Shown: positions 1-56,330 of the stretch, piece by piece
Layout: the number at the start of each line of letters is the position of its first letter
Position numbering within the stretch: the stretch's first letter is position 1
NCBI RefSeq assembly: GCF_018812025.1
Contig: NC_063044.1
Span: 70,154,847 to 70,218,846 of the forward strand
DNA length: 64,000 bases
From: Megalobrama amblycephala
Lineage: Eukaryota > Chordata > Actinopteri > Cypriniformes > Xenocyprididae
Direction: 5' to 3'
Translations under genes and position numbers: made by a program
Notes under the pieces: generated by a model
What the model was told of the DNA's origin: nothing
The model's input: the letters and a program-made list of their open reading frames with translations, nothing else
Database searches by the model: none

Positions 1-767
1 CTGATGATTCAGCTGTGCACAGATACAGACGTTAATACTGGCTGCCCTTGTCTAATGCCTTTTATAATGTTGGGAACATGGCATATGCAAATATTGGGGG
101 CGTACACCCCAACTGTTACGTAACAGTCGGTGTTATGTTGAGATTCGCCTGTTCTTTGGAGGTCTTTTAAACAAATGAGATTTATATAAGGAGGAGGAAA
201 CAATGGAGTTTGAGACTCACTGTATGTCATTTCCATGTACTGAACTCTTGTTATTCAACTATGCCGAGGTAAATTAAATTTTTCATTCGAGGGCACCTTT
301 AATTTTTTTTTTTCTTTGTTTCTCTGTCGATATCCTCATCCCCTGCCTAGTTCCTCTTCTTGCCCCCAGAAATCTGTCCCAACCACTGCCGCATTTAGTT
401 TAATCTTAACTTTTTCCTTTACTAGCTAACTCCCTCCTCTTTCAGTCTATACTCCCTGCTCTTGCTCCGTTCGTTCTTTTTCTTCCTTGTGTTTTCTGAT
501 GGACACTCCGTTCGTTTCTCGTGCTGGTTTCACTGCAAACTGCGCACCGCCAATGGCCGTATGAAACGTCATTGTGTAGCATTACGGCACAGTGTTAATG
601 GGAAATGTAGGAAGTGCTGCCAGGGGGATAAATGACCGAGAACAGAGCCTCATGAATCACCGGCCAAATGTTTTTATTAACACCCACCAAAATGAATTTT
701 AACACGCATTTGGCGGGTGTTAATTTAGAACCCTGACTGCAGTTCTGACTCCTGAATGTTCTTCCAG
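1..767. other. Non-coding; presumably intron upstream of the SPRY exons
   Basis: I see no exon with both splice sites and a recognisable product. A short imperfect hairpin lies at 677-723 (arms begin TTAACACCC and end GGGTGTTAA), which looks like the tip of a dispersed repeat. The rest is plain AT-rich sequence. The ORF on the minus strand near 9-236 resembles nothing I know. Confidence 0.5.
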
Positions 768-5110: not shown

Positions 5111-5390
5111 TCAGTTTTTTTTTTTTTTTTTTAGTGGCGGAAATGGGCTTCCATAGTCCTGCTTTTAATGCAAGTAGAAATCATTTATAAGTAAGCTCAC
5201 TTAAGGACTTAAGATTTATCTTTATAATTTTTTATCATATATTATGTCAATTTTAAAAAAAAATCTTATATAATATTAACTTCTGCTTTGTTTGTTTGCT
5301 TGGTTTTAATTTGAATTGTATTTATGTTACTGTTAAATAATTTCTTATTTCTTCACTTTTTGACTTTCTCTGTGTCTTGGGATTTTTCCA

Positions 5391-28904: not shown

Positions 28905-30005
28905 GCTCAGTCACCTTCCCCACAGTACATTTCCCAGCATCCCTCCTGATCCACACCTGCACATCATTACCTGCACTCTCCATAAAGACTCTCTTCTCCT
29001 GCACTCCCTTGTCTGGTCCTGTCGATGTGTATCAGTATGTCTAGTGTCTGTCAACTTGTGTGATAATATTCACGACCCTACCTGTTACTCTAGCTAGTGA
29101 TGGGCAGATCGAGGCTTCGTGAAACACTGAAGCAGTTGAAGCAAATGTGTCGTAATGTGTCGAGGCTTCAAAACAATCTGACACCTGTCTCCACGGTGAC
29201 CCCTAGTGGTCAGAACAGTGTAAATGCAACAAAACTCAGGCCAAACATGCATAAAAACACCTTTTACAAATGTATTGCAAATGTTTTATTGAAAGTAAAA
29301 TCTATCAAATGCAATTAACTAATCATCTAATAAGATTAAATATAGATTGTGTGTGTAATATGTGTTCTTTTATCAATTTTCAAGGCTTGTTTCTCTGTTC
29401 AATGGCTCAAGATAAACAGGCAAATAAGAGATTAATAACTATACCATTATTCATTTTAATTATTCTAATGTCTAATTAAAACATCTACAAATGTATAAAA
29501 CTGATCAGAGATCAGGTAAAGCCCACAGAAACTTGTTCAATAGTTCTCTTTTCACTTTCACTTTATCATCGCCCTCTACCGATGAACCAATTTCAATCTG
29601 TTGACGTGATGACGCAATGAAGCCTCGTTTACTGAAATCACATGACTTTGGCAGTTTGATACACGCTCTGAATCACTGATTCGAAACAAAAGATTCATAA
29701 AGATTCTGAGCTTCATGAAGCAGTGTTTTGAAATCGGCCATCACTACTTACCAGTGATCCTGATTTATCTCCTGTCTTCTGTTCCTTGTGTCGTTTCCCT
29801 GGATTCTCCACTCAGCCTGCATCACCGTCTTCACTGCAATACATGGACTGTATTACCACCAGCTAAGTTCACCATCTGCCATTCAGTGACTGTTTCCTCT
29901 TACCTGTTCACTTTTAGCCTGCTCTCTAATACCTCCAATAAAGCACTGTTTGTTTGCTGCTCACCTCATCTGTCCTCTTCTGTGTTTGTGACAATGCTGT
30001 GTTAA
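28905..30005 (+). mobile_element. Probable retroelement terminal sequence interrupted by a hAT copy
   Basis: The left part (28905-29094: CCTGATCCACACCTGCACAT) and right part (29748-30005: GTCGTTTCCCTGGATTC; CCAATAAAGCACTG) look like two halves of one dispersed sequence with a polyadenylation signal, such as an LTR. The hAT copy at 29095-29747 separates them. Confidence 0.45.
29095..29747. mobile_element. hAT-like non-autonomous element (TAGTGATGG ends)
   Basis: The left end is TAGTGATGGGCAGATCGAGG and the right end is the inverse of TAGTGATGGCCGATTTC. Further in, both ends carry AACACTG(A/C)(A/T)GC-type phrases. No 8-bp duplication is visible, so the flanks have diverged. There is no transposase frame in 653 bp. 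Confidence 0.7.
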
Positions 30006-30095
30006 GGAAATATATGTATAATTTCATGTTGTCACAATACTGGAATTTCTAACTTTGACACTATACCTACGATACTGATATTGATATTCAATACC

Positions 30096-30297
30096 ACAGG
30101 GAAATAGGAGCAGGAGCAGCTAAATCTCCAACCTCTGGAGAATCGCCTGTTTTAAACAAACACAGTGGAGAGTCTGCTAGAGAAAAGAGAACGCGACAGA
30201 GCTCGTAATAAAACAAGAACCAACATTAGCTCGGCTTTAGATGGCGAGAACTGATGGATTTGAAATGTAAAAGCGTTGCGGTGATTAAGGAGTTTTT
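30096..30297. repeat. Second copy of the inner block of the 19574-20204 element
   Basis: GCTAAATCTCCAACCTCTGG and CAAGAACCAACATTAGCTCG match 19820-19960 with few differences. The terminal inverted repeats are not seen here, so this is a fragment. Confidence 0.8.
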
Positions 30298-31005
30298 ATT
30301 ACTCGACAGATGAGTGTAGCGATAAGTACAGTTACTTAATCAATTTATGGGTATATAATTAATCATAAAGCTTTATGTCTAATTATTATGCATATAACAA
30401 CCCAAGGGGGAATTAAACATATATTGTGAATTAATTACAACGAATTATAATCAATTACATATATGATTAGTTCTGCTTTAATTGTTTAGAGAAACTGGAG
30501 AATCTGCGGTTTTTGGTTTCCTCCTCTGAAGACAGCTGAATACTCGTTTGATGGTCTTGTTTTCTATGTATTTCAACTTGTTTTTATGCCACTTCAGATG
30601 CTTGGGAACATGAGTTAGTCTAAACTCATTATACAGTAGAATATTCTGGTATATTCGTGTGACTTCTGCAGATGTGTGTACCATGAAAGAGTGCTTATTA
30701 ATGATTTTTTTAAACATAATTTTAAAATTGATTATTAATATATACACTCATGGCAGGACATATTGAGAAAGCAAGAGAGAATGAGAATAAATAAAGTTAA
30801 GCATCTGTGTGTTGTAAAGTCAAATGTGTAGCTGTGGGTGAAAGATTGGCTAGTTTAGTTTTCCTCACACGACAAAATTACAGATAACGTCTCAAAATGA
30901 GTTCTAAAACAGCTAAACTCGACTGAAACATTTGCAAAAATACCTAAGACTATTGTGCTTGGAGAAACGAATCCTCTTAAATGTGCTCTCTGATGGTTCT
31001 GGTCT
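30298..31005. other. Non-coding left flank of the large transposon
   Basis: AT-rich, no recognised repeat or exon. It ends at the GGGTTC target duplication (31006-31011). Confidence 0.5.
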
Positions 31006-31126
31006 GGGTTCTACGGAGCCCCTAAAGGGACATGGTGATAGAAAAAAAAATGGGAAGGGAGGAAATTTTACGTGGTGGTGGAAAAAAAATTGGGATGGGA
31101 GGAATTTTTTTTTTTCAAATCTTTTG

Positions 31127-31425
31127 CGTTCCCTCGCAAAGATTGCGTTCCCTCGCAAAGATTGCGTTCTCTCGCAAAGATGTTTTGCGTTCCCTCGCAA
31201 AGATGTTTTGCGTTCCCTCGCAAAGATTGCGTTCCCTCGCAAAGATGTTTTGCGTTCCCTCGCAAAGATGTTTTGCGTTCCCTCGCAAAGATGTTTTGCG
31301 TTCCCTCGCAAAGATGTTTTGCGTTCCTTCGCAAAGATTGCGTTCCCTCGCAAAGATTGCGTTCCCTCGCAAAGATGTTTTGCGTTCCCTCGCAAAGATG
31401 TTTTGCGTTCCCACGCAAAGTTGCT
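31127..31425. repeat. Left subterminal array of a hairpin repeat, 14 units
   Basis: Each unit is GCGTTCCCTCGCAAAGAT, alone or with GTTTT added. The core TTTGCG-TTCCCT-CGCAAA is a 6-bp-arm inverted repeat, a plausible dimer-binding site. Units 3, 10 and 14 carry single changes. The right end of the transposon has the same motif in inverse orientation. Long ORFs in several frames here (for example leading into the transposase from 30932) are by-products of the repeat. Confidence 0.9.
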
Positions 31426-31501
31426 TGTGTTCCCTTGTTATGAGTTCGGCGAAACACTTCCTGTTTCCCGCTGGTCGTGGTTCAGACAGCTCACGTTCAT
31501 A

Positions 31502-32350
31502 ATGGAGAGGTTCATAGAGTTTTATTTTGAACTTGGACTCAAATATAAAGAAATGCGGTCAGTGCTTAGTTCGAGGCACAGTTATGACGTAAGTGAAAGA
31601 CACCTGAAAAGGATTTTACGCGAAAGAGGATTGTCTCGACGCAAAAATTACTCGAGCTTAGTGGACCTTGTTGATTTTATCCGTAATCAGCTGCAGTCTT
31701 CTGGGCAGCTTCATGGGTATCGATGGATGTACGCCAAATGCAGGGAGAAGGGTCTGCGTGTGAGAAAAGAGGATGTGCGCGTGGCACTTAAGGAGCTGGA
31801 CCCTACAGGAGTTTCAATGAGGAGAGCCAGACGTCTCAGACGGCGCAACTACTTTGCGAAGGGACCAAACTTCATTTGGCATTTGGATTCATACGATAAG
31901 TTAAAACCATATGGCATTTGTATCAATGGTTGCATTGACGGCTTTTCGAGGAAGATTATCTGGCTTAACACATACACAACTAGTAGCGATCCAAAGCTTA
32001 TAGGCGGTTACTATATTGAAGCGGTGGAGCGTTTGGGAGGATGCCCAAGAGTTGTTAGGGGGATCTTGGAACTGAAAATGGTCATGTTAGAGACTTTCAG
32101 CGTTTTTTTCACATCAATCACGCAGATGAATCTCTTGACAGCTATTTGGATGGTGCAAGTACTGCCAATCAAAGGATCGAGTACTGGTGGGGGTTTCTGC
32201 GCAAGGAATGCATGGAATTCTGGATTTGCCTGTTTGCTGAGCTCAGAGACAACGGATACTTCGATGGAGGATTCTTGGACAAAAGTTTGCTCCAGTTCTG
32301 CTGCATGGGACTCATCCAGGTGAGTTAAATGGAAATTATGTTGTGATGCT

Positions 32351-32397
<47 letters not shown>

Positions 32398-32980
32398 TCC
32401 AAATAAAACAAATTGTCATTACTCACGTCACATTGTTCCAAACAGTACACATACAACGCATATTACTTTTTTGTTTGTTTGTTTGTTTGTTTTTGTGGAT
32501 ATTCAGTGCAGAGGCCACCATCTTTTGTTTTCCACATTATGTCTGTAAGTTTGAAACAATGAGACACTGGGTAAATGAGGGCATAATGTTATTTTTTGAG
32601 TAATTCAGTTAAAGGTTTTGCCTAATTTCTTTTATTATTGTATTGTTTTGCAGGATGAGCTGGATGACACTGCACAGGTTTGGAATACACACACCATTAG
32701 GCCATCAAAGAACATCAGCAACCCCAGTGGTCGGCCCAGTGTGATGTATGGACTGCCTGAACTCTACCTCACCAGAGACTTCCTCACCTCAGCTGACACT
32801 GAAAGTATTCAATTTTGCAAGAATGAGTGCACTTTCCGACGCCCCATACCATGTGATCCAGATGTAAATGAACTGTGCAACACTATAATTTCTGAGTCTC
32901 ATTTGAGCCTTCCAAAAGACCCGTATCAAGCTGTGAACTTATACATGCATTTAAGAGATGTGATCAGGTCATTACTGTAA
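31502..32980 (+). CDS. IS3/integrase-like DDE transposase, two exons, one apparent frameshift
   Basis: Exons are 31502-32319 (donor GTGAGT) and 32654-32980 (acceptor TTTGCAG), joined in phase 0, about 381 codons. The start at 31502 (MERFIEFYFEL) follows the repeat array. Residues 1-45 look like a helix-turn-helix (MRSVLSSRHSYDVSERHLKR). Residues 65-105 (LHGYRWMYAKCREKGL) match the helix segment preceding the core in IS3-type transposases. The catalytic core has the first Asp in WHLDSYDKL (D129), then IDGFSRKIIWL, a second Asp in a GDLGTEN box, and Glu in NQRIEYWWG 39 residues later, a DDE layout. At about 32058 the frame slips by one inside a run of five G just before the second Asp; six G would keep it open. 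The C-terminal exon (DELDDTAQVWN...) is intact. Confidence 0.85.
32350..32398. repeat. (TC)n(TG)n(AG)n compound microsatellite in the transposase intron
   Basis: TC, TG and AG runs follow each other, so the outer parts can pair. It lies 25 bp after the donor. Confidence 0.9.
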
Positions 32981-33269
32981 GAACTGCAAGGTCCTTTTTA
33001 TCTGAAATGTGTTTAAATTGTCGGACTTGCATTATATTGTGCTTACATTGTAGACTATACTGTCCACCTGGGGGATCCTACAATATTTTAGAAAGTTTTT
33101 ATAAAGAATTACAATACATGAACATCATTAAAAATGAAATCATCATGTGCAAAAGAGTTTGTTTACAAAGTTGTTTATAAATGCACAGAAAAGCCACAGA
33201 GGAAATATGTTTATTTCTGACAAATCTGAACCTGTAACACCATGTAAACTATGTGTTTAAACTTGATGG

Positions 33270-33275
33270 AATAAA
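33270..33275 (+). terminator. Likely polyadenylation signal of the transposase transcript
   Basis: AATAAA stands 290 bp after the transposase stop. A minus-strand AATAAA equivalent lies near 33209, so the two convergent transcripts may overlap at their 3' ends. Confidence 0.45.
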
Positions 33276-33900
33276 CAAAGTTAAAGATTCTGAGAACTTT
33301 CCTAAAATTTTAACTTTGAGAAGTTATTGAGACATTATTTTCTGTGTAAACACAATACACATAACACATGAATAACATAAGAACCAAATAACAACTTATC
33401 AGTATAACACTGTCTGTGGTTTATGTAATTAACAAAAAAAGTTGATTGTTCAGAGTAATTTCTGTACTAACAACAAAAGTGATATTGCTTAAGATGAAAA
33501 TCAGCTCAGCCATCTGTTCAACACTTTGCAGCTGTAGAGTATATTTCAAAAATATTGTGTAAACAAAATGAATACAACAAATAACACTTAAACTGTACTA
33601 ACAGCTCTGGTGATGTGCTTTGAATGACCTGACCACTTATTGGAAAACTCCAAACCTATTTGAAAGTAAATTCCATGTTATGAAAATCAAATGTAAAACA
33701 AATCATTAGTTATAGGGGCCATTTAAATGAAATGTTATCTAAAGACTGCTGTCGAATGTAGCATGCTGTACTTTAACCCATGAAACACAAAAAAGAATCT
33801 TCATGTAGATTGTTGCCAACAAGTTTATAATAACTACAGACTGTCAAGTTCCAAAAGAGTGATTATGATGACTATGAACTATTCCTGAGCAGCATCAAAT

Positions 33901-36900
33901 TCACAGGATGTCCATTTCAAAGTAATCACTGGACAGAATGTTATCAAACTCTGTGCGGAGGTCTGGGTAAGAACTATAGGTATATGGTAAATCAAGAGTT
34001 GCTCCACAAGTATGAGCAACTGGTCTTCTGCAGAGGCCAGATTCTGCATTGAAGCTTACCTTGATTTGGTCAACACATATGACAGAAGAACCAGTACAGA
34101 AGCGTAGAAATTTTTCTGCTTTGCCTTGATCAGCATTTCTGACATACCGTTGCAGATGATTGAATACCATCTGTTCTTTCTGAGATCGAATCTCTTGTGT
34201 TGTTTGAAGTAGCTGTGCCACTTTTTTACCAGTGGCCTTCTTTGTGTCATAGAGAGACAGTAGACTGTCCTGGTCTGGTACTTTCAGCAGTGCAAATATC
34301 ATGGTTTTGGAGAAGCAATCTATTATATATTTGGGCTCTTGAAGAATTGCTTTATGAGCCATTGTTTGGATGGCAACTTCCATGGTGTTTTTTGGAGGGA
34401 TGCAATGAGAACCCATTCTTGTGAAGAGGTCAAGCAAATCTTCTTCATCACATTCCTCGAGTGTGCCTTGACGGACCTTTGCAACAGCAGATCGTTCAGT
34501 CGAAGAGAGGTAGTTTTGGAAAGATGACATCAGGACATCATCACTGACGGAGTCAATTCCATGTATGCATGCTACAATGAAAGCACTGGAAAGCCTCACT
34601 GGCAGTACACCAAGGTCAAGTAATCCTTTTACCCAGATCCTTCCTACTGCCTCCCATTCAACTTCAGAGAAGTCTGGTCTCAGTCTAGGAACACGCTCAT
34701 CTTCCCCTTCACACTGTTCAAGGAACTGATCCCAGAATGCAGTGTAAACTTCTCTGGACACTCCAGCATCATCTACAGCACTCTCATTTACAAATTCCAT
34801 CTTCAGAGTTGATTGAATTATGCTGCTATCCATGAACACAGCCAGAAGATCTTCTACAACCTTCACCCTGTGTATTAAAGCATGCACATCTTTTGAATTT
34901 TCTGAGTTTCCAGATGAAATTGTAGGAGAAAGGTGGTTTCTTGAATGTGATGGCAAATCTTCTGGTGCGGAAAGCATTTCGTTACCCATCTAGAAAAAGG
35001 TAAAAACCATTTAGAACTGTTTTTTACAATGTGTGTTCAAATTAAAAAATTCAAACAATTAGTTCAGTAAAAATAATTTTCCTACCCTCATATTGTTGTC
35101 TAATCTGAATAAGATTTTATTTTGTGTCACTGTAAAGTGGCATTTATTTATAAAAAAAAAATAACTATACTTGTTCTCAATCACTTCTCAATTCTTTAAA
35201 GTTTAAACTGTAAATTCAATTGTCATAACTGTTTGCTGGATCATCAGAACTCTATTGCATGTATTGCAAAATGTAGTAACTCTTAAGTAAATGTAGTAAC
35301 CATATACATAAATATTTTATTATATTTTATTTAATTTTTTTCTATTTTTTGTTTAGATTGACTGCTTTCTATACTATACAATAATGTCATGTAATGATCA
35401 ACTTAGGCTTACAATGCTTTTGGAAAACTACCCAGTTCATTTATTTTTGCAGAAATGTGTTGCGCATGTAAACTGAACATTCACAGTTGCTTTTTCATTT
35501 TACACACTCTATTATGTCTTTCTTTTCAATGGCAAGCAACTGAGTATTTTCAGTTAACATACAACACATTTTGACAAAAATTACTGTACTGTATAAAGAC
35601 ATGCATTTATACAGTTAAGGGATGTGATGTTCCCCCAGACATTACAAGCATTCTCAAAAATATTTTTGGAATATAGCATGATAACTTTTGATAACTGAAT
35701 GGATTATTTTTGCATGTGATGGGTTTGCAAAAAAAGAATGTGTATAAGTTGTGAAGAGTTTGATAGTTTTCATTAAGAATCAACTTATAGTTTTGATCAA
35801 CAGGCCATGTGCATTTAGTTATTGTGCAAATTGCAGATCATTGTACTAACTCTTCATTTCAATTCAATTCACATTTATTTGTATAGCACTTTTCACGGTA
35901 CATATCATTTCAAAGCAGCTTTACAGAGAACGCATGTCAACGTTACAATTAAGTGAATGCAGTTAGCTAATAATGTAATAATTTAGGCAATTAATTTACA
36001 ATCACTTTTAGCAGTTTAATTGAAGGTAGAAGCAATGAGCTCCTGGAAAAATGACTTACATATTAACAATAGTTAGGTTATATAGAAATTTGGGAATGTG
36101 CATTTAGATCCAGACGTCATCTGAAGTCCTTGCAGGAGTTCCTTGAAAGGTGTTGGTTGTGTGCCAAAGCACATGCAATTTGCTTATGTAAGTAATTCAA
36201 ATATGATATGAACAAGAAACTAATTGTTCTGAGATCTGAACTTTTTGTTGTGAGAGAAAAAAAGTTCCAAATTCCAATTTGCAATTGAGAAAAACTAAAA
36301 TAACCTTTTGATCATTTACAGTGCATCCGGAAAATATTCACTTCACTTTTTCCACATTATGTTATGTTACAGCCTTATTTCAAAAGGGATTAAATTCATT
36401 ATTTTTTCCTCAAAATTCTAAAAACAATACCCCATAATGACAATGTGAAAGAATTTTTTTTTTTAAATCTTTGCAAATTTAAAAAAAAACAAACAAAAAA
36501 AAACCACATACATAATTATTCACTGCCTTTGCCATGACACTCAAGTGCATCCTGATTGCACTGATCATCCTTGAGATGTTTCTACAACTTGATAGGAGTC
36601 CATCTGTGCTAAATTCAGGTGATTGGACATGATTTGTCTAAATAAGGTCCCACAGTTAACAGTGCATGTCAGAGCACAAACCAAGCCATGAAGTCCAAGA
36701 AATTGTCTGTAGACCTTCAAGACAGGATTGTATCGAGGCACAGATCTGGGGAAGGGTGCAGAAACATTTCTGCAGCATTGAAGGTCCCAATGAGCACAGT
36801 GGCCTCCATCATCCGTAAAAGGAATAAGTTTGGAACCACCAGGACACTTCCTAGAGATGGCAGCCTGACCAAACTGAGCAATTGGGGAAGAAGGGCCTTA

Positions 36901-39900
36901 GTCTGGGAGGCGACCAATGGTCACTCTGACAGAGCTCCAGCATTTCTCTGTGGAGAGAGAAGAATCTTCCAGAAGAACAACCATCTCTGCAATCAGGCCT
37001 GTATCGTAGAGTGGCCAGACGGAAGCAACTCCTTAGTAAAAAGCACATGACAGCCCACCTGAAGGACTCTCAGACCATGAGAAACAAAATTCTCTGGTCT
37101 GATGAAACAAAGATTGAACTCTTTGGCCTGAATAGCAAGCGTCATGTCTGGAGGAAATCAGGCACCACTCATCACCTGGCCAATACCATCCCTACAGTGA
37201 AGCATGGTGGTCGCAGCATCATGCTGTGGGGATGTTTTTCAGCAGCAGGAACTGAGACTAGTCAGGATCAAGGGAAAGATGAATGCAGCAATGTACAGAG
37301 ACATCCTTGATAAAAACCTGCTCCAGAACACTCTGGAATTCAGACTGGGATGAAGGTTAATCTCCCAACAGGACAACGACCCTAAACACACAGCTATGAT
37401 AAAAAAAGAGTGGCTATGGGACAACTCTGTGAATGTCCTTGAGTGGCCCAGCCAGAGCCCAGACTTGAACCCGACTGAACATCTCTGGAGAGATCTGAAA
37501 ATGGCTGTGCACCGATGCTCCCCATCCAACCTGATGGAGCTTGAGAGGTCCTACAAAGAAGAATGGGAGAAACTACCCAAAAATAGGTGTGCCAAGCTTG
37601 TAGCATCATACTCAAAAAGACTTGAGGTTGTAATTGGTGCCAAAGGTGCTTCAACAAAGTATTGAGCAAAGGCTGTGAATAATTATGAATACAAATAAAT
37701 TAATAAAAAGATATAAATGATTTCAAACAAACTTCTTTCACATTGTCATTATGGGTTTTTTTTTTTTGTAGAATTTTGAGGAAAATAATTAATTTAATCT
37801 ATTTTGGAATAAGGCTGTAACAAAACAAAATGTAGAAAAAAGTAAACCGCTGAATACTTTATGGATGCACTGTATTTTAGTTAGTTTTGGAGTAGTTTGG
37901 TTCCAAGTTTTCCAGATTTGATACTTTTATTATACACAACTGTGCAAAAGTCATGTTAGAATCAGTTACAACATATTGTATACATTGAGTATGTAAATGT
38001 AAATCATTTTTTTTCATGTAACTATTATTTTTTTGTTTGCTTGTTTACAATTAATGGCAAAAGGAATGTTTGGAAATGTAAAATGATATTTTGTAATGAC
38101 ACACTACAGAAAAGATTTAAATAACTGGCTTAAATCCATTTTTGGGGGGTGAAAATACTAACATTTTTGCACAGTAATGTATATAATAAAAAAAATCATG
38201 TAGTTTCTAACAACTGTATACTGGAGTTAACAATGGAGTAATAACTTAAGATATATTTTCCTGACACAGTCCAGTCCCCATTCTTTGTAATTGCATGGAA
38301 AAAATATTTTGCAAGCTCTCATTTTGTATTCCACATAGGAAAGAAAGTCATACAGGATTATGTATATGATCTATAAAGTTTTTGTAGTTTCTTTATTCCT
38401 TATTGTATAATCTGTTAAATAGTTTTCTTTTCTAAAGAAACAAAAGATAAATCTTACAAAAATATGCAATTCTGTGTTTTTGGATTCTATTATCTAAAGG
38501 GCTCTCTTACCTAGCAGTACAGGATTACTTGAGGGTGGGGATGGTACCTCAGTTTCAGCTTCTTTCATCTCTGCATTCTGGGGGATCAATAAACATGCAG
38601 AACAATAAAAAGAAAAAGAAAAAAGTAGTATCACTTGATAATGTAACAGCTGATCTAAAGGACCTCCACATGCAAAACACATTTTTGGTCTCTCTTACCA
38701 GCAGTACAGCATTGCTATTACTTGAGAGTGGTGATGGTACCTCAGTTACAGCTTCATTCAGCTCTGCATTCTGGATGATCAATACACATACAGAGCATGA
38801 AAGTCAAACACATTGTTACAAAAACATAAAAAAGTGTCACTGTTGATAATGTAACAGTTGCCTAGTGATGAGGTAGATGCACAAAGCCCCCTGAATTTGT
38901 TTTCTATTATAATTAGGATGTACATTGTAGTTTTAAAGTTATTTTATAATTCCCATTTAATGTTTATAGTCTGAATATTTTATTTTTAACATGTATGGTG
39001 AACCATTTGGTCCATTAGGACCACATTACCAGATTCAATGTTATCACAGTTGTTTGGTCTTCATCTGTTTGTCCAAGTTCATCATCTTCATTCCACTCAA
39101 CTGTGTCATCATCTCCATCGGTTTCAAATATATTGTTGTGATGTGTAGGAATCTGATTGGTCAAGTCAATTAATTCATAGCCTCTTTGAACATTACAGAG
39201 CTCATGTGAATGCTGTGGACTGTTCGGTTGCTGCACACTTTGATTCCACAATTCACAATTCTCCTCGTCGTCACTTGAGGTGCTTGAGAGTGTTTGGACT
39301 CTGCGTGCTCTTTTGGTATTTTTAGGTGATGAAAGGGAGCTGTGTGAAGTGCTGGGTGTCTCTATCCCCGTGTTCTCGAAGGTCAAACCACTCTGTGGAA
39401 CACCCTCCATTCCTCTTGTTCTCTGTGCTCTAATGCTTTCTTGTCTCTGAAGAGCATGCAATATTCAATGATTAACTCAGCCATTCAACTGAATTAATGA
39501 TATTAATAGCCACTCAGCTAAATTAAATGTTAATTTACAACACATCTGTAACTATATTAAAAAAATAAGCCCAAAATACATTTAAATAAACTTTTAGTGA
39601 TTTTACTAACCTTCCTCTTGGTGTCTCTGTTAGATGAAAGTCTGTCATCCAATAAATGTATGCTTGAATCCTCAGAATCACTGTCACGTCCATGTGATAA
39701 CAGTTTTGCAGCAGGTCTCTCAGTATCACTGTCTACTCCATCCTGTAGTAATGAGTGTTCATTACATTCCTCTTTTTCTCCATCAGATAAAGATTCTACA
39801 TCTGTGAGACACACCTCCTGTTTAGTGCAAACGTAAAATCTCAACATTTTCAGTTTTGTTTGTTCATACAGATTTCCAACAGTGCTATCCAAGGGAATTT

Positions 39901-41173
39901 GGTTTCTTTTAAAATCACAAACATGAAAAGTGAAGTCTGTCTCTGGACCTTTTGGTGACTGGCCATTTGGGAAAAAAAGATTCTTTCCCATTTCCATGAT
40001 TTGTAAAACAGTTGTTTTTTTTTTTAACTGTCACATGTCTAGTGCCACCACCATTACTGGTCCTCACTTGTTGGTATCCATTACGGCAGAAGTGAAGCCA
40101 TCCAATTTCAATTCTTCTGGAGGTTTTTTCTGCAGACACATTTTTGGGTCTTGACAATGCATTCTTTTCCTTGGGGAAGACACATGCTTTAACATTCAAA
40201 GTTTTAGCTGACTTTGATCCCAGTTTCCTTGCTTCAATTTTATCTCTCAAATTCTGTAACAGAGATTCTTTATCAGTGCAGGCTGCTGTTCGTTGACAGA
40301 AGGAGACCACAGCCAGTCGGTCACCATATGAATGAATATACTTTGCTATTTGCTGATCAGTCATAACAGAGAGCACAGACTTGTCAATCTGAAAGTGCAG
40401 AGAAGATCTAATTTAATAGATTGGTTCTAAAAGGACGTAAATGCACTAATGAATTAATAATATGTTAACACGGTGTAGATTTATTTATTTGTTTTTTTAA
40501 CAATAAAGTTTATCTGCATGCCACCCTGGTTCTAAAATGGGGCTCAATATTAACATTCAGGGTACAGTTAATCTAACCTCACTAAAAGAGCCCTCATGAA
40601 CTCACCAAAAATACAGTCAATGATCATGCAGGAATTTAAACATCATAACAATCAATTTTTTGAACAGGCCTATTTGTCATATTTAAGTTATTGTGGAATA
40701 AACGCAAGTATATTCTGTTACGTAAAGCAGCTTCATCAGGACAGTTACTATATAAAAACATTGCAATTGTAATTATTCCTCTTATTTTTGCAAGGGAGTG
40801 CAAACTTACACTCAACTATAGGTCTTTTACCATTACTAGTGAACCAGTTAACTGTACATCAATTCTGATTCAACAACAAAGGTGAGATGTCTGTGGTGAT
40901 ATTCTGACAAAAATAATTCAAACATAGCTTATGTGTATACATACGTGGCTATGGTTTTTAAGGATAATATTACATGTTTACACATACAGAGATGTCAATG
41001 TCCACACCTTTGGTCGCTTCACTAAAAGTAGCCTAGCTATCATTTGCATATTAGTTAAACATATGCCCATTGATCTTGAATGATACACTACCCACCTTGT
41101 CTCTTTTCATGTGAATGATGTCCTCTTCTGGAACATCTCGTGACTTTAAAAACTGCTGCAGATCGTCCTCCAT
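33901..41173 (-). CDS. HECT-domain E3 ubiquitin ligase carried by the transposon, multi-exon, one frameshift
   Basis: Inferred exons, in transcript order: 41173-41096, 40388-39611, 39446-39030, 38770-38699, (38577-38511), 34989-33901; about 810 residues. Exons 1-2 encode a SAM-like head ([19 protein letters not shown] then [14 protein letters not shown]). [21 protein letters not shown] block and a ubiquitin-like-looking stretch ([10 protein letters not shown]...[14 protein letters not shown]) follow, then an acidic, Ser-rich region. The last exon holds the HECT fold: [24 protein letters not shown], and the catalytic Cys in [15 protein letters not shown], 34 residues from the end as in true HECT ligases. 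The frame slips within an 11-A run (40015-40025). HECT enzymes form a thioester with ubiquitin and pass it to targets. It starts about 350 bp inside the right terminus, so it belongs to the element. Confidence 0.8.
35868..35945 (+). repeat. Dispersed teleost repeat in the HECT-gene intron
   Basis: TTTGTATAGCACTTTTCACG and TTTCAAAGCAGCTTTACAG match the type found at 9001-9095. Confidence 0.6.
36319..37872 (+). mobile_element. Tc1-like transposon nested in the HECT-gene intron
   Basis: Ends CAGTGCATCCGGAAAATATT and the inverse (GGATGCACTG) are flanked by TA (36317-36318, 37873-37874). The inverted arms extend about 120 bp (CACTTTTTCCACATTATGTT; GGCTGTAACA). The size, 1.55 kb, is right for a complete Tc1 element. 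It is inserted in the opposite reading sense to the HECT gene, within the 38510-34990 intron. Confidence 0.92.
36688..37665 (+). pseudogene. Tc1-family transposase, broken by frameshifts
   Basis: The N-terminal paired-type helix-turn-helix is readable ([18 protein letters not shown]...[12 protein letters not shown]), then the frame shifts at least twice. All three acidic residues of the DDE triad are still present: [21 protein letters not shown] and [11 protein letters not shown]. They lie in different frames, so no active enzyme is made. Full-length Tc1 transposases are about 340 residues and the span fits. Confidence 0.9.
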
Positions 41174-41274
41174 CGCAGAGCTGCAACAGTTGTTCCAGCT
41201 TTGTGCCGATCCAGATCTCACGTCGTAAGTGATGCTGTGAAGATTCAAGCGCAAACCTCCGTGACCGCGCAGAA

Positions 41275-41385
41275 GTCTCTCGCGAGAACACAGGTTGCGC
41301 GAGAGAACACAACAGATAGTTTTGCGAGGGAACGCAAAACATCTTTGCGAGGGAACGCAAAGTTTCTCGGGGGAACGCAAAAGAA
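41275..41385. repeat. Right subterminal hairpin repeats, inverse of the left array
   Basis: Two clear units (TTTGCGAGGGAACGCAAA) and about three decayed ones (TTGCGCGAGAGAACACAA; CGCGAGAACACAG; TCTCGGGGGAACGCAAA) point inwards from the right terminus, mirroring the 14-unit left array. They lie just upstream of the HECT gene start, as the left array does for the transposase. Confidence 0.85.
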
Positions 41386-41530
41386 AATTCCTCCCAAAAA
41401 GCTTAAAAAAAAAAAGCATTAAAAAAAAAATCCTCCCATCCAAAAAAATTTTCCACCACCACGTAAAATTTTCTCCTATTCCAATTTTTTTTTTTCACCA
41501 CCATGTCCCTTTAGGGGCTCCGTAGGGTTC

Positions 41531-42336
41531 AAACATGCCGACTCGTAAAGTGAAACATTCGTGAACTGAAAGTGAAAATATGCGCTCGGGGACAAATATG
41601 CTCAGTGACTGGAGAAAAAAATAAATAAATAAAATAAAATAGCCACGAAACGTCTATCTAAACAATTACGTGCATCAGATTGTGTGGGTACAGGAAAGAG
41701 ACAGTAGATTTGTACACAATTAGATCGTTCCCACCAAAACTACAGAACGCACATCAGTGCAATCGTTTATTTCGTTTTTCTGTGCGTATCCTGAGATAAA
41801 ATCCTGCAGACGCCTCTGCTTGTGTTTGATAGTCAGACACACTGCAGATGGCTAAAACACTTAATCACACAAATAATTACTGCTCAAGGAAAGGCAAACA
41901 CTTGAGGTCTGTCAGTGACTTTGCATTTGCATAAAATCGCCTGTGTTTGTAGGTTGCAAGCACGCGCATCAGTGGCGCGCGGCGCGTAACCTGTTGCGTT
42001 CTGACACTTGTGAGTGAATCGAGACTGCCCTGAGCAGAAACATGTCCATATATGACTGATGATGTAGTGGATTATCGCTGTCCAATCACGTGTCAGACTC
42101 CTCTCTCTCTGTTTACTGAATAATTCCGCTCACAGCAGCGCATCATCATCAGCTCTTGAGATCTTGAGCAAATGTAAAATATCTAAAATATCTCAGATAT
42201 GATTTTCTCAGCAGTAGCCTAATGTATGCAATTCTTCCTTTAATTTATACCTAACGAATTAATGCGCAATCCAGTCATACAAATGGATTTTGTTCTGATT
42301 AACGCGGTAAAAATAACTATTATTATTATTAAAGCA
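41531..42336. other. Non-coding spacer between two transposons
   Basis: I recognise no repeat or exon between the right end of the large element and the hAT copy starting at 42345. Confidence 0.5.
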
Positions 42337-42344
42337 GGATATGT

Positions 42345-43806
42345 CAGGGGCGCAGATAGGAATTTGTAACTGGGGGGGACCAAGCTGTCAGCAAATGATT
42401 CAAACTCAATTAGTTATTTGGCGTAATTTGGGCTTTAACTTGTGCTCAAGTAGTTACTTTGCAAAATTTGGGCTAATGCTTTGCACTTAAAAGCCATTGG
42501 GGGATTCTTATTTGGAATCACGGATAAACAACAATGAACAAAGGTAAACAAAGGCCTACCTGATCACCACTAGCAATGCATGATCAGACTGTTATTTACT
42601 AGTATGCCAATCACCCACCAAAACTTAATTTGTCTTTAGCAAAGTATGTTTTATTTAAACATTTGCTTATCTCAGCATAGAAAGGCTATCATTATGAACA
42701 AAAAAGCAAAGAACAGCCGAAGTTATAATTTCATAATTTTTCTATACCTCTATAGAATTTCACAACAATGTGAAATACAACATATTCCTGAGAATGAATG
42801 GCTAAAACTACTATTTCAAATGTCTAAGAATAACTAAACATTTGAAATTTAAGTGTTAATTACAAGTTTGTTGCAATTTACAGAAATATCTTTCAAACGA
42901 TTTTTTTTTTCATCCTAGCCCATAATTTAAGAATCTATATCCTCCGTTGCTCCATACAAAAAACAAAAAAAAACATGATTTCCTGCTATAAGAGGATGTC
43001 AAAAGTTTATGTAGGCCTTTATTTGTTGTTTGCATAAACCTTGCACCACACACATTTACTTATTATAATTATTTTTATAGTGGCTTGCATGACAGTGAAC
43101 TCAATTTATACAGTACAATGGGTTAAATGATCAGATAAAACATTATTTCCATTATGTTTGGCTAATTGACTACCATTCATATAACCACAGTTTTACCACA
43201 AATACCATGGTTAAACTCGGTTAGAGTAGCAAAACCATGGTTAATTTGTGGTTACCATGGTTTAACTATGGTTTAACTACATGGTTTGACTACATTTTTT
43301 TGGTTTTATTTGTAGTAAAACCATATGGTTCATTTTCGTAAGGGCATTATTGTCAAACTAGCTATTCTCCTTCAAAAAAATCTAACCTGCCACATATGGG
43401 AAAGTCAACAGGCACAGGATACTTACATTGTTTGTTTTTTTTAAAAACGAGGTGATTGTTTTTTGTCTCTTCATTCCGAAATCACCGACTCAGTCGGTGT
43501 CAGCTCAGTCATAGTATATGATCACTATGGTTACCGCTCTAAGTCCTACAGGCCAGCTCCTCATAGGACCCCGCGTTGCCAAGTCCGCGGTTTTCCATAT
43601 GGGTTTTTCCGCAGAATTGGGCTACTTCATCACTATTTCCGCGGGCTGTTTTTCATGTCGCGGGTTGAAGCAACACCAAATGTGATTTTTACCGGGGAAG
43701 CAGTCCCCCTGAAACGCGACTGGGCTTGTTTTGAGTAGCAATTGGGTGGGTTTTGTTGTAACCTGGCAACCCTCCCGGCGTCACTCAGGAGTCGTAGCAA
43801 GCCAAG

Positions 43807-49639: not shown

Positions 49640-52600
49640 TTAAAGGCCTCTGAATTCAAGTAATGTGGGATATCTCCAAAATGCTGCAGTAAAATGTACT
49701 CATATGAAGTATGCATACTCTATGGGATGTCCCCTATAGACACAGACCATTCGTTTTTCTACTTATTTGAAATGAGGTGTTTATAGGCCTTTGAAGTTGA
49801 ATAATGTGGCATATCTCCAAAATGCTGCAGTAAAATGTACTCATATGAAGGTATGCATACTCTATGGAACGTCCCCTATAGAAACAGACCGTTTTTTTTC
49901 TACTTATTTGAAATTAGGTGTTTATAGGCCTTTGAATGTCAAATAATGTGGCATATCTCCAAAATGCTGCAGTAAAATGTACTTATATGAGCTATGCGTA
50001 CTCGATGGGACGTCCCCTATAGACACAGACCACTCGTTTTTTCTACTTATCTGAAATGAGGTGTTTAAAGGCCTCTGAATTCAAGTAATGTGGGATATCT
50101 CCAAAATGTTGCAGTAAAATGTACTCATATGAGGTATGCATACTCTATGGGATGTCCCCTATAGACACAGAGCACTTAGTTTTTTCTACTTATTTGAAAT
50201 GAGGTGTTTATAGGCCTCTGAAGTCAAATAATGTGGGATATCTCCAAAATGCTGCAGTAAAATGTGTTCATATGAGGTATGCATACTCTATAGGATGTCC
50301 CCTATAGAAACTTACCTTTCTTTACTTCTACTTATTTGAAATGAGGTGTTTATAGGCCTCTGAAGTCAAATAATGTGGTATATCTCCAAAATGCTGCAGT
50401 AAAATGTACTCATATGAGGTATGCATACTCTATAGGATGTCCCCTATAGAAACTTACCTTTCTTTACTTCTACTTATTTGAAATGAGGTGTTTATAGGCC
50501 TCTGAATTCAAATAATGTGGGATATCTCCAAAATGCTGCAGTAAAATGTACTCATATGAAGTATGCATACTCTATGGGATGTCCCCAATAGACACAGAGC
50601 ACTAGTTTTTTTTTTTACTTATTTGAAATGAGGTGTTTATAGGACTCTATGTTTTTTTTTTCTACTTATTAAAAATGAGGTCTTTATAGGCCTCCAAAGT
50701 CAAATAATGTGGCATATCTCCAAAATGCTGCAGTAAAATGTACTCATATGAGGTATGCATACTCTATGGGATGTCCCCTATAGAAACAGACCATTCGTTT
50801 TTTCTACTTATTTGAAATGAGGACCTTTATAGGCCTCTGAAGTCAAATAATGTGGCATATCTCCAAAATGCTGCAGTAAAATGTACTCATATGAGGTATG
50901 CATACTCTATGGGATGTCCCCTATAGAAACAGACCATTCGTTTTTTCTACTTATTTGAAATGAGGTGTTTATAGGCCTCTGAATTCAAATAATGTGGCAT
51001 ATCTCCAAAATGCTGCAGTAAAATGTACTCATATGAGGTATGCATATGCTATGGGATGTCCCCTATAGAAACAGACCATTACTTTTTTTCTACTTATTTG
51101 AAATGAGGTGTTTATAGGCCTCTGAAGTCAAATAATGTGGTATATCTCCAAAATGCTGCAGTAAAATGTACTCATATGAGGTATGCATACTCTATGGGAC
51201 GTCCCCTATAGAAACAGACCTTTTTTTTCTACTTATTTGAAATGAGGTGTTTATAGGCCTCTGAAGTCAAATAATGTGGCATATCTCCAAAATGCTGCAG
51301 TAAAATGTACTCATATGAGGTATGCATACTCTATGGGACGTCCCCTATAGAAACAGACCATTTTTTTTCTACTTATTTGAAATGAGGTGTTTATAGGCCT
51401 CTGAAGTCAAATAATGTGGGATATCTCCAAAATGCTGCAGTAAAATGTACTCATATGAGGTATGCATACTCTATAGGATGTCCCCTATAGAAACAGACAC
51501 TAGTTTTTTTCTACTTATTTGAAATGAGGTGTTTATAGGCCTCTGAAGTCAAATAATGTGGGATATCTCCAAAATGCTGCAGTAAAATGTACTCATATGA
51601 GGTATGCATACTCTATGGGATGTCCCCTATAGAAACAGACCATTTTTTTTTCTACTTATTTGAAATGAGGTGTTTATAGGCCTCTGAAGTCAAATAATGT
51701 GGGATATCTCCAAAATGCTGCAGTAAAATGTACTCATATGAGGTATGCATACTCTATAGGATGTCCCCTATAGAAACTTACCTTTTTTTTCTACTTATTT
51801 GAAATGAGGTGTTTATAGGCCTCTGAAGTCAAATAATGTGGCATATCTCCAAAATGCTGCAGTAAAATGTACTCATATGAGGTATGCATACTCTATGGAT
51901 GTCCCCTATAGAAACTTACCTTTTTTTTCTACTTATTTGAAATGAGGTGTTTATAGGCCTCTGAAGTCAAATAATGTGGGATATCTCCAAAATGCTGCAG
52001 TAAAATGTACTCATATGAGGTATGCATACTCTATGGGATGTCCCCTATAGAAAAGCACCTAGTTTTTTTTCTACTTATTTGAAATGAGGTGTTTATAGGC
52101 CTCTGAAGTCAAATAATGTGGTATATCTCCAAAATGCTGCAGTAAAATGTACTCATATGAGGTATGCATACTCTATGGGACGTCCCCTATAGAAACAGAC
52201 CATTTTTTTTCTACTTATTTGAAATGAGGTGTTTATAGGCCTCTGAAGTCAAATAATGTGGCATATCTCCAAAATGCTGCAGTAAAATGTACTCATATGA
52301 GGTATGCATACTCTATGGGATGTCCCCTATAGAAACAGACCATTTTTTTTCTACTTATTTGAAATGAGGTGTTTATAGGCCTCTGAAGTCAAATAATGTG
52401 GCATATCTCCAAAATGCTGCAGTAAAATGTACTCATATGAGGTATGCATACTCTATGGGACGTCCCCTATAGAAACAGACCTGTTTTTTTTTCTACTTAT
52501 TTGAAATGAGGTGTTTATAGGCCTCTGAAGTCAAATAATGTGGTATATCTCCAAAATGCTGCAGTAAAATGTACTCATATGAGGTATGCATACTCTATAG

Positions 52601-55600
52601 GATGTCCCCTATAGAAACTTACCTTTTTTTTCTACTTATTTGAAATGAGGTGTTTATAGGCCTCTGAAGTCAAATAATGTGGTATATCTCCAAAATGCTG
52701 CAGTAAAATGTACTCATATGAGGTATGCATACTCTATGGGATGTCCCCTATAGAAACAGACCTTAGTTTTTTCTACTTATTTGAAATGAGGTGTTTATAG
52801 GCCTCTGAAGTCAAATAATGTGGTATATCTCCAAAATGCTGCAGTAAAATGTACTCATATGAGGTATGCATACTCTATGGGACGTCCCCTATAGAAACAG
52901 ACCATTTTTTTTCTACTTATTTGAAATGAGGTGTTTATAGGCCTCTGAAGTCAAATAATGTGGCATATCTCCAAAATGCTGCAGTAAAATGTACTCATAT
53001 GAGGTATGCATACTCTATGGGATGTCCCCTATAGAAACAGACCATTAGTTTTTTCTACTTATTTGAAATGAGGTGTTTATAGGCCTCTGAAGTCAAATAA
53101 TGTGGATATCTCCAAAATGCTGCAGTAAAATGTACTCATATGAGGTATGCATACTCTATGGATGTCCCCTATAGAAACAGACCATTTTTTTTCTACTTAT
53201 TTGAAATGAGGTGTTTATAGGCCTCTGAAGTCAAATAATGTGGTATATCTCCAAAATGCTGCAGTAAAATGTACTCATATGAGGTATGCATACTCTATGG
53301 GATGTCCCCTATAGAAACTTACCTTTTTTTTCTACTTATTTGAAATGAGGTGTTTATAGGCCTCTGAAGTCAAATAATGTGGGATATCTCCAAAATGCTG
53401 CAGTAAAATGTACTCATATGAGGTATGCATACTCTATAGGATGTCCCCTATAGAAACTTACCTTTTTTTTCTACTTATTTGAAATGAGGTGTTTATAGGC
53501 CTCTGAAGTCAAATAATGTGGTATATCTCCAAAATGCTGCAGTAAAATGTACTCATATGAGGTATGCATACTCTATGGGATGTCCCCTATAGAAACAGAC
53601 CTTAGTTTTTTCTACTTATTTGAAATGAGGTGTTTATAGGCCTCTGAAGTCAAATAATGTGGTATATCTCCAAAATGCTGCAGTAAAATGTACTCATATG
53701 AGGTATGCATACTCTATGGGATGTCCCCTATAGAAACTTACCTTTTTTTTTCTACTTATTTGAAATGAGGTGTTTATAGGCCTCTGAAGTCAAATAATGT
53801 GGCATATCTCCAAAATGCTGCAGTAAAATGTACTCATATGAGGTATGCATACTCTATGGGATGTCCCCTATAGAACAGACCATTAGTTTTTTCTACTTAT
53901 TTGAAATGAGGTGTTTATAGGCCTCTGAAGTCAAATAATGTGGATATCTCCAAAATGCTGCAGTAAAATGTACTCATATGAGGTATGCATACTCTATGGA
54001 CGTCCCCTATAGAAACAGACCATTTTTTTTTCTACTTATTTGAAATGAGGTGTTTATAGGCCTCTGAAGTCAAATAATGTGGTATATCTCCAAAATGCTG
54101 CAGTAAAATGTACTCATATGAGGTATGCATACTCTATGGGATGTCCCCTATAGAAACTTACCTTTTTTTTCTACTTATTTGAAATGAGGTGTTTATAGGC
54201 CTCTGAAGTCAAATAATGTGGTATATCTCCAAAATGCTGCAGTAAAATGTACTCATATGAGGTATGCATACTCTATGGGATGTCCCCTATAGAAACAGAC
54301 CATTTTTTTTCTACTTATTTGAAATGAGGTGTTTATAGGCCTTGAAGTCAAATAATGTGGCATATCTCCAAAATGCTGCAGTAAAATGTACTCATATGAG
54401 GTATGCATACTCTATGGGACGTCCCCTATAGAAACAGACCTTTGTTTTTTTTCTACTTATTTGAAATGAGGTGTTTATAGGCCTCCTGAAGTCAAATAAT
54501 GTGGCATATCTCCAAAATGCTGCAGTAAAATGTACTCATATGAGGTATGCATACTCTATGGGATGTCCCCTATAGAAACAGACCATTAGTTTTTTCTACT
54601 TATTTGAAATGAGGTGTTTATAGGCCTCTGAAGTCAAATAATGTGGCATATCTCCAAAATGCTGCAGTAAAATGTACTCATATGAGGTATGCATACTCTA
54701 TAGGATGTCCCCTATAGAAACAGACCATTTTTTTTCTACTTATTTGAAATGAGGTGTTTATAGGCCTCTGAAGTCAAATAATGTGGTATATCTCCAAAAT
54801 GCTGCAGTAAAATGTACTCATATGAGGTATGCATACTCTATGGATGTCCCCTATAGAAACTTACCTTTCTTTACTTCTACTTATTTGAAATGAGGTGTTT
54901 ATAGGCCTCTGAAGTCAAATAATGTGGTATATCTCCAAAATGCTGCAGTAAAATGTACTCATATGAGGTATGCATACTCTATGGGATGTCCCCTATAGAA
55001 ACAGACCATTGTTTTTTCTACTTATTTGAAATGAGGTGTTTATAGGCCTCCTGAAGTCAAATAATGTGGCATATCTCCAAAATGCTGCAGTAAAATGTAC
55101 TCATATGAGGTATGCATACTCTATGGGACGTCCCCTATAGAAACAGACCATTAGTTTTTTTTCTACTTATTTGAAATGAGGTGTTTATAGGCCTCTGAAG
55201 TCAAATAATGTGGCATATCTCCAAAATGCTGCAGTAAAATGTACTCATATGAGGTATGCATACTCTATGGGATGTCCCCTATAGAAACAGACCATTAGTT
55301 TTTTCTACTTATTTGAAATGAGGTGTTTATAGGCCTCTGAAGTCAAATAATGTGGTATATCTCCAAAATGCTGCAGTAAAATGTACTCATATGAGGTATG
55401 CATACTCTATGGGATGTCCCCTATAGAAACAGACCATTAGTTTTTTCTACTTATTTGAAATGAGGTGTTTATAGGCCTCTGAAGTCAAATAATGTGGTAT
55501 ATCTCCAAAATGCTGCAGTAAAATGTACTCATATGAGGTATGCATACTCTATAGGATGTCCCCTATAGAAACAGACCATTCGTTTTTTCTACTTATTTGA

Positions 55601-56330
55601 AATGAGGTGTTTATAGGCCTCTGAAGTCAAATAATGTGGTATATCTCCAAAATGCTGCAGTAAAATGTACTCATATGAGGTATGCATACTCTATGGGACG
55701 TCCCCTATAGAACAGACCATTTTTTTTCTACTTATTTGAAATGAGGTGTTTATAGGCCTCTGAAGTCAAATAATGTGGTATATCTCCAAAATGCTGCAGT
55801 AAAATGTACTTATATGAAATATGCATACTCTATGGGACGTCCCCTATAGACACAGACCATTCATTTTTTCTACTTATTTGAAATGAGGTGTTTATAGGCC
55901 TCTGAAGTCAAATAATGTGGCATATCTCCAAAATGCTGCAGTAAAATGTACTCATATGAGGTATGCATACTCTATGGGATGTCCCCTATAGAAACAGACC
56001 TTTGTTTTTTTCTACTTATTTAAAATGAGGTCTTTATAGGCCTCCAAAGTCAAATAATGTGGCATATCTCCAAAATGCTGCAGTAAAATGTACTCATAAG
56101 AGGTATGCATAGTCTATGGGACATCCCCTATAGACACAGACCATACTTTTTTCTACTTATTTGAAATGAGGTGTTTATAGACCTTTCAAGTCGAATAATG
56201 TGGCATATCTCCAAAATGCTGCAGTAAAATGTACTCATATGAGGTATGCATACTGTATGGGATGTATAGAAACAGACCATTGGTATTTTCTACTTATTTG
56301 AAATGAGGTCTTTATAAGCCTAATCAGACA
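49640..56330. repeat. Satellite array, about 48 copies of a 140-bp monomer
   Basis: The monomer runs from GGCCTCTGAAGTCAAATAAT through ATATCTCCAAAATGCTGCAG, ATGTACTCATATGAGG, TATGCATACTCTATGGGATG, TCCCCTATAGAAACAGACC, a variable T run, and CTACTTATTTGAAATGAGG. Intervals between successive CTGCAG sites are 139-142 bp. Copies in the centre are nearly identical. Those at both edges (49640-50700, 55800-56330) are diverged, as unequal exchange predicts. Variation is concentrated in three places: GGxATATC, GGGAyGTCC, and the 3-11 bases before the T run (CAGACCATTAG, ACTTACC and others). No ORF of note. Confidence 0.97.

Follow-up and report, generated by a model that had tools for sequence, protein, structure and literature searches.

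The 64,000-nucleotide stretch of Megalobrama amblycephala DNA analysed here (NC_063044.1, positions 70,154,847 to 70,218,846; hereafter the window) contains, at 31012-41524, an IS3EU-type DNA transposon with a DDE transposase gene on the forward strand and a convergent HECT ubiquitin-ligase gene on the reverse strand. The window copy is damaged, with one frame break per gene and a nested Tc1-like element. It is probable that this is a two-gene transposon whose HECT ligase stayed with the transposase during diversification, with a host protein as the favoured target, and the ligase gene is better regarded as a second gene of long standing in these transposons than as a stray passenger. The anatomy of the element, the linkage of its two genes and the shared history of the pair are supported by the data.

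The element is bounded on both sides by a perfect 6-bp target-site duplication, GGGTTC (31006-31011 and 41525-41530), read from the sequence, and an inverted-repeat search placed its terminal inverted repeats at 31012-31120 on the forward strand, starting TACGGAGCCCCTAAAGGGACATGG, and at 41416-41524 on the reverse strand, where the last bases are GGGGCTCCGTA; the repeats are 93% complementary over 40 nt and 85% over 72 nt. The two ends, TACGGAGCCCC..GGGGCTCCGTA, have the form TACGG..CCGTA. A search of positions 30001-42500 for pairs of TA..TA ends that lie 3 kb or more apart, share the same 6-bp flank and have no more than 3 mismatches in 14 returned two, namely 31012/41524 with 0 mismatches and one internal pair within the same terminal repeats. 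Next to the left repeat lies a subterminal array of 14 short palindromes, TTTGCG..CGCAAA (31122-31435, forward strand; 23 bp period and 14.6 copies by Tandem Repeats Finder), and two units are present near the right end (41321-41365, reverse strand). These TTGCGTTCCCTCGCAAAG-type palindromes were counted with up to 2 mismatches on the left and up to 3 on the right, and at up to 2 mismatches none occurs in the window outside 31000-41530 or in 20 shuffles of the left stretch. An earlier reading of this DNA from its letters alone (the sequence-only reading) had seen two ends, the GGGTTC duplication and two convergent genes as one unit, which the sequence, the inverted repeats and the Pfam domains confirm. 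The mirror-image hairpin arrays that it described are indeed present in inverted orientation at both ends, but their sizes are very unequal. Its assignment to IS3EU also stands, given the TAYGG..CCRTA-form TA..TA ends, the 6-bp duplication and a transposase with an integrase core.

The exon borders of both genes were read from splice-site motifs in the DNA, and the gene models are predicted. Transposase exon 1 (31502-32319, forward strand; open reading frames, splice-site motifs and Pfam) encodes the DDE integrase core PF24764 (rva_4) and has a frame break near 32060, and exon 2 (32654-32980, forward strand; open reading frames and splice-site motifs) includes the stop codon. PF24764 matches the first piece at 6.6e-11 and the second at 0.0002, below the cut-off, and weak helix-turn-helix-like Pfam matches upstream of the core also fall below it (Clr5 0.0018, HTH_12 0.74). 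This single frame break of the window copy has no counterpart in the two copies A and B described below, and the whole transposase, read through it, is 98% identical to P0121 from Culter alburnus. By regular expression, the D, D and E motifs are all present in 97 of the 120 transposase homologues listed; four of five sampled homologues have the spacing D-58-D-38..40-E, and the fifth is without one motif.

The HECT gene has about six exons on the reverse strand, and its start codon lies 351 bp within the right end, where about 350 bp had been proposed. Exon 1 with the start codon (41096-41173) is followed by exon 2, which encodes the N-terminal region (39611-40388), by exon 3, which encodes an acidic spacer (39030-39446), by a small exon (38699-38770; all but exon 2 from open reading frames and splice-site motifs) and by a second, duplicated small exon (38511-38577), whose junction with the last exon is out of phase in the window copy. 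The frame of exon 2 is broken at a run of 11 T (40015-40025) that has equal length in copy B, possibly a shared old indel or a slippage site. The last exon (33901-34989) is open over 362 aa and encodes the HECT domain, as judged by Pfam, AlphaFold2 and Foldseek. Its product matches PF00632 at 6e-10, above the cut-off, and the profile searches that the sequence-only reading had suggested thus recover both domains, the integrase core on the forward strand and HECT on the reverse strand. The AlphaFold2 model of the domain (mean pLDDT 87.5) has the predicted N- and C-lobe of a HECT fold, and its top Foldseek matches are HUWE1 (best 6xz1, E 3.2e-11), NEDD4 and TOM1, at 12-18% identity in the best 50 rows.

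The catalytic cysteine had been called intact in the motif VAHTCGATL, and the alignments bear this out. C328 (codon 34006-34008, reverse strand) is invariant across a selected 31-sequence alignment, and HMMER places this C-lobe residue on the catalytic cysteine of TOM1 and HUWE1, within the motif HTC. The active-site Cys is likewise present in 12 of 12 extracted HECT loci, the window among them (the best 12 of 37 matches to the HECT exon). A rough regular-expression count gave Cys in 98 of the 104 sequences in which the motif was found, from 182 HECT matches; the six others are, by reading, three false motif matches (P0017, P0020, P0086) and three with Tyr or His (P0021, P0072, P0102), and the remaining 78 matches have a truncated or variant motif, several of them retaining Cys by eye. 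For the N-terminal region, as represented by P0045, Pfam gave nothing, the AlphaFold2 model was poor (mean pLDDT 51.1) and Foldseek returned no match below E 0.38. The insignificant matches include ubiquitin-like folds (GABARAP 0.55, UFM1 0.98, UBX 2.0, LC3A 2.1), and the region, read by eye as a putative SAM-like helix bundle with a ubiquitin-like fold after it, offers no more than a lead. Pfam scans of nine relatives gave nothing beyond HECT above the cut-off except one THAP domain. In the predicted Thunnus albacares protein P0246 a THAP DNA-binding domain is joined to the HECT protein, and three further predicted proteins (P0079, P0108, P0019) have ubiquitin-specific protease (USP) sequence before the same HECT domain, as a fusion or a gene-prediction join.

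To follow the pair beyond the window, the 1.11-Gb assembly was searched with the transposase query P0121, which gave 110 matches clustered to 68 loci, and a HECT match was sought within 10 kb of each. Such a match is present at 36 of the 68 loci and is convergent in all 36, whereas 200 runs of random placement gave 0.145 linked loci on average and never more than 2; the clustering had joined a pair of neighbouring loci at 21.80 Mb of C1. Linkage follows preservation, with 22 of 25 loci linked where at least 60% of the query is covered and 14 of 43 below 60%. Of the three unlinked well-covered loci, C13 at 5.29 Mb retains, where it would be expected, the N-terminal part of a HECT gene, and C67 has a HECT match 30 kb off in the expected orientation. 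Five of the nine best further HECT-exon matches (L044-L048), read around the exon, have both genes in convergent orientation in every case, with the second transposase exon alone visible in the stretch read at L045, L047 and L048. The sequence-only reading had taken the ligase for unusual cargo; it is instead, in this genome, the usual convergent partner of well-preserved transposases of this kind, and this holds for two HECT lineages.

The second lineage (type II) was recognised at loci such as L056 and L057, where a transposase of the kind already described (PF24764 2.7e-79 and 2.4e-22) accompanies a different HECT C-lobe (PF00632 2e-13 and 1e-8). It includes a young family of four copies (C1, C5 twice, C18) whose 267-aa transposase exon and 96-aa HECT exon are 100% identical. 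All four have TATGGG..CCCATA ends, which lie about 9.03 kb apart in the three copies that also have perfect 6-bp duplications (GAATTG, TTTTTA, TAAAAG). Genome-wide, the type II HECT exon occurs at 48 loci, 27 of them with a transposase match within 10 kb and 24 scored as convergent; one of the three other pairs (C1:21806577) is a merging artefact and two are truly non-convergent. HECT of the window's own lineage (type I) occurs at 28 loci, 20 of them with a transposase match within 10 kb, so that it is no gene of one conserved locus; homologues confined to such a locus are what the sequence-only reading had said would contradict it.

Recent movement is seen in copy B, one of two close copies of the window element. 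The window HECT exon has 37 matches in the genome, among which three loci are near-identical, namely the window, copy A and copy B. Copy A (C15 at 2.54 Mb) has the left end, the transposase and a 97% HECT-exon match with three stop codons, and nothing matching beyond window position 36480 in the 18 kb read. Copy B (C15 at 31.56-31.59 Mb) is 99.66% identical over window 32478-41524 and includes the nested Tc1/mariner-like element, a TA-flanked insertion at 36319-37872 in the last HECT intron delimited by inverted repeats I2, I12 and I23 and by its boundaries. The match ends exactly at the right end of the element, and the flank beyond it differs from that of the window. Between the left piece of copy B (window 31119-32482, 96.8% identity, left end at 31561390) and the remainder, the transposase intron has taken up an insertion of 13,157 bp. 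Because identity extends up to the exact right end and gives way to a new flank, a unit comprising HECT, the right end and the Tc1 element was recently copied elsewhere. The whole of C15:31561390-31586777 (L040-L042, L049) is a possible composite in which a left end and both genes, with the insertion, are followed by a right end and then, after some 0.7 kb of unrelated sequence, by an inverted left end at 31586777; its outer flanks, CTAGTG/TTAGTG, are equal at 5 of 6 positions.

The two genes have also diverged together. We compared 12 linked pairs, nine from loci of this genome and three from other fishes in which the two genes have consecutive identifiers (Leuciscus PO909_034017/034018, Channa Q5P01_006012/006013, Scatophagus LOC124069480/124069481). 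Transposase and HECT distances are correlated with a Mantel r of 0.85, a value reached in 0 of 9,999 permutations, and the comparison of trees proposed in the sequence-only reading shows the same close groups on both sides, with the window and copy A beside Channa, C14:30 beside Leuciscus and Scatophagus, and C2:5.1 beside C1:8.3. The deeper branches of the trees are weak or discordant, and some HECT sequences are partial. When HECT of the window type is compared with the 59% type, dN/dS comes to 0.13-0.16, at a nearly saturated dS of 1.8-2.1; inside another family, at dS 0.03-0.23, it is 0.13-0.22. HECT relatives occur in many ray-finned fishes (147 matches, of which the best 120 were examined) and, in an 83-match search, in Actinostola, Photinus, Holothuria and Saccostrea (sea anemone, firefly, sea cucumber and oyster). 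Transposase relatives are widespread and include Photinus and Holothuria (best 120 of 1,637 matches examined). A tblastn search of viral contigs with HECT and transposase found no relatives.

Several observations weigh against HECT as the standing partner of the transposase. When every fragment matched by either of two transposase queries is counted, there are 147 loci, of which 46 have HECT within 10 kb, 44 convergent and 2 not (random expectation, mean 0.34 and maximum 3); many of the unlinked loci are short fragments. At C14:42.98 Mb, the third unlinked well-covered locus, neither HECT nor its N-terminus is present in the 8 kb read, and HECT-free elements of this kind may exist. Outside this genome, linkage rests on identifier numbers and one predicted fusion (P0102) and not on DNA. 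Clean boundaries are also missing in places: there is no matching duplication at the inner right end of copy B, the L046 element has TATGG..CCATA ends without a clean duplication, and the second C5 type II copy lacks matching flanks. Finally, 8 of the 28 HECT loci of type I and 21 of the 48 of type II have no transposase detected within 10 kb. The type I figure could be cited for a reading in which HECT is a host gene lying beside or around a transposon and the unit a coincidence. We consider this hardly credible, since the ends that enclose HECT are flanked by a perfect duplication, HECT recurs at new sites in copies A and B with at least one exact end, and three type II copies hold it inside perfect duplications. 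The dispersed copies (copy B and the type II copies) likewise reject an assembly join or a neighbouring host gene, and the claim that HECT is part of the element and no neighbour is upheld.

A further point against the partnership comes from the ends themselves. A 99-base left-end query gave 752 candidates, and among the best 40 of these, which were scored and match at 95% or more, the window is one; at all the other 39 (95-98%), neither the transposase nor HECT has a match within 15 kb. The left ends of copies A and B are less similar (81% and 89%), and both copies lie outside this set. Among the matches listed, therefore, the window's termini are used mostly by copies with neither gene. The sole listed place read at both ends, C20 at 17.21 Mb, is a 1,589-bp copy with an AATTCT duplication. 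Taken literally, termini never found with HECT, which the sequence-only reading had named as evidence against itself, describe all 39 of these places, but they lack the transposase too; we therefore take them for non-autonomous derivatives, which are not evidence against HECT as a partner. The same 39 places could be cited in favour of passive capture, in which a host HECT gene became a one-off passenger of the window element; transposons do pick up genes, and the 135 PF00632 matches of this genome include, by reading, host HECT genes. Such a capture is very improbable in the face of linkage across many diverged families, all convergent in the 68-locus count, together with matching distances, constraint, and relatives in sea anemone, firefly, sea cucumber and oyster. 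A single one-off capture is rejected by the genome-wide linkage (36 of 68) and the agreement of distances.

Two further points against the partnership are the broken frames in both genes of the window copy and a dN/dS of 0.65-1.70 in four very young HECT pairs with few changes. These high ratios are expected after insertion, though they lend no support. In another reading, HECT was once functional and is now dispensable in this lineage, a relic kept only through the youth of its copies. The T-run break common to the window copy and copy B, the ratios of the young pairs and the numerous gene-less copies with the same ends would fit a relic, but dN/dS at larger divergence (0.13-0.22) and the retention of the active-site Cys at all 12 extracted loci, the window included, speak against it, and we regard it as improbable.

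We return to a ligase retained as the second gene. The DDE transposase would act on DNA with TACGG..CCGTA ends, moving it with the formation of 6-bp duplications, and would probably mobilise the short gene-less copies with the same ends in trans; the palindrome arrays are its likely binding sites. The ligase would attach ubiquitin to a protein, and the element would profit from that protein being removed or marked. That ligase activity is of benefit to the element is suggested by the conserved active-site Cys, by the common history of the two genes and by the constraint seen at larger divergence. The most likely target would be a host protein that limits transposition, through silencing, chromatin or end repair, selected by the divergent N-terminal region. 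As fungal IS3EU elements carry an alpha-kinase and a TET/JBP gene that may act on the host, and Helitrons carry deubiquitinases, we tentatively favour such a host factor by analogy. Alternatively, the ligase may act on its own transposase, limiting its level or clearing it from the finished joint so that repair proceeds, in the manner of ClpX acting on the Mu transpososome. The co-history of ligase and transposase fits a partner relation of this kind, as does a HECT match adjoining 22 of 25 well-covered transposase loci, but co-history is equally expected for any two genes between the same ends, and we think this target rather unlikely; other roles make up the remainder.

Taken more widely, it is somewhat probable that animal IS3EU transposons have, as an ancestral and near-standard second gene, a HECT ligase of one of at least two lineages, with ubiquitin tagging built into the life cycle, and that many multi-copy fish HECT genes, those predicted under the name 'G2/M phase-specific E3-like', are transposon genes. 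If so, an animal transposon superfamily manipulates the host ubiquitin system with a ligase of its own, which would offer a testable handle on element survival in vertebrate germ cells and a natural series of HECT ligases that are very divergent and co-evolve. It would also serve as an annotation warning, as many fish HECT genes may be transposon genes.

Elsewhere in the window, the last bases of a 42-bp minisatellite of 50 copies (2952-5155) read GGCGGAAATGGGCTTCCATA up to 5155, a terminus of the type seen in another IS3EU family (L046). It can be read as an expanded subterminal array; no forward partner end for the 5155 terminus was found in the window. A 142-bp satellite of about 47 copies occupies 49640-56321, and there are open frames for a PRY/SPRY domain (1509-2129) and for a retrotransposon reverse transcriptase/RNase H (62942-63568).

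IS3EU, a Repbase name, is a superfamily of eukaryotic DNA transposons described as having TA..TA ends, usually 6-bp duplications and a transposase of the DDE integrase type without HHCC (Kojima 2023, PMC10045372). The window element is alike in its ends, its duplication and the DDE integrase core of its transposase but has a HECT gene, and the main text of that paper contains neither 'HECT' nor 'ubiquitin' (0 occurrences each). Closer in organisation are the IS3EU elements of rust fungi (Kojima 2025, PMC12730594), which carry TET/JBP and alpha-kinase genes and share the TAYGG..CCRTA ends, the 6-bp duplications and an enzyme gene opposite the transposase. As described there, the alpha-kinase is on the opposite strand with the TET/JBP gene between, whereas the window has a HECT ligase instead; the main text mentions neither 'HECT' nor 'ubiquitin'. 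No pairing of IS3EU with HECT was found in the open-licence literature, a scope outside which Repbase lies, and the pairing may be known to curators. IS3EU elements and ubiquitin-system genes in transposons are thus already known, and what appears new, within that literature, is a HECT ligase as a standing second IS3EU gene. With the cellular ligases HUWE1, TOM1 and NEDD4 the window HECT shares the fold and the active-site motif HTC, but its identity to them is low, and the nine relatives scanned have no other Pfam domain save the one THAP. The VTD and OTU deubiquitinases of Helitrons, as far as the text of PMC9741609 describes them, are likewise transposon-borne enzymes of the ubiquitin system with a conserved active site; they belong to another transposon class and remove ubiquitin, whereas the predicted ligase of the window element would attach it.

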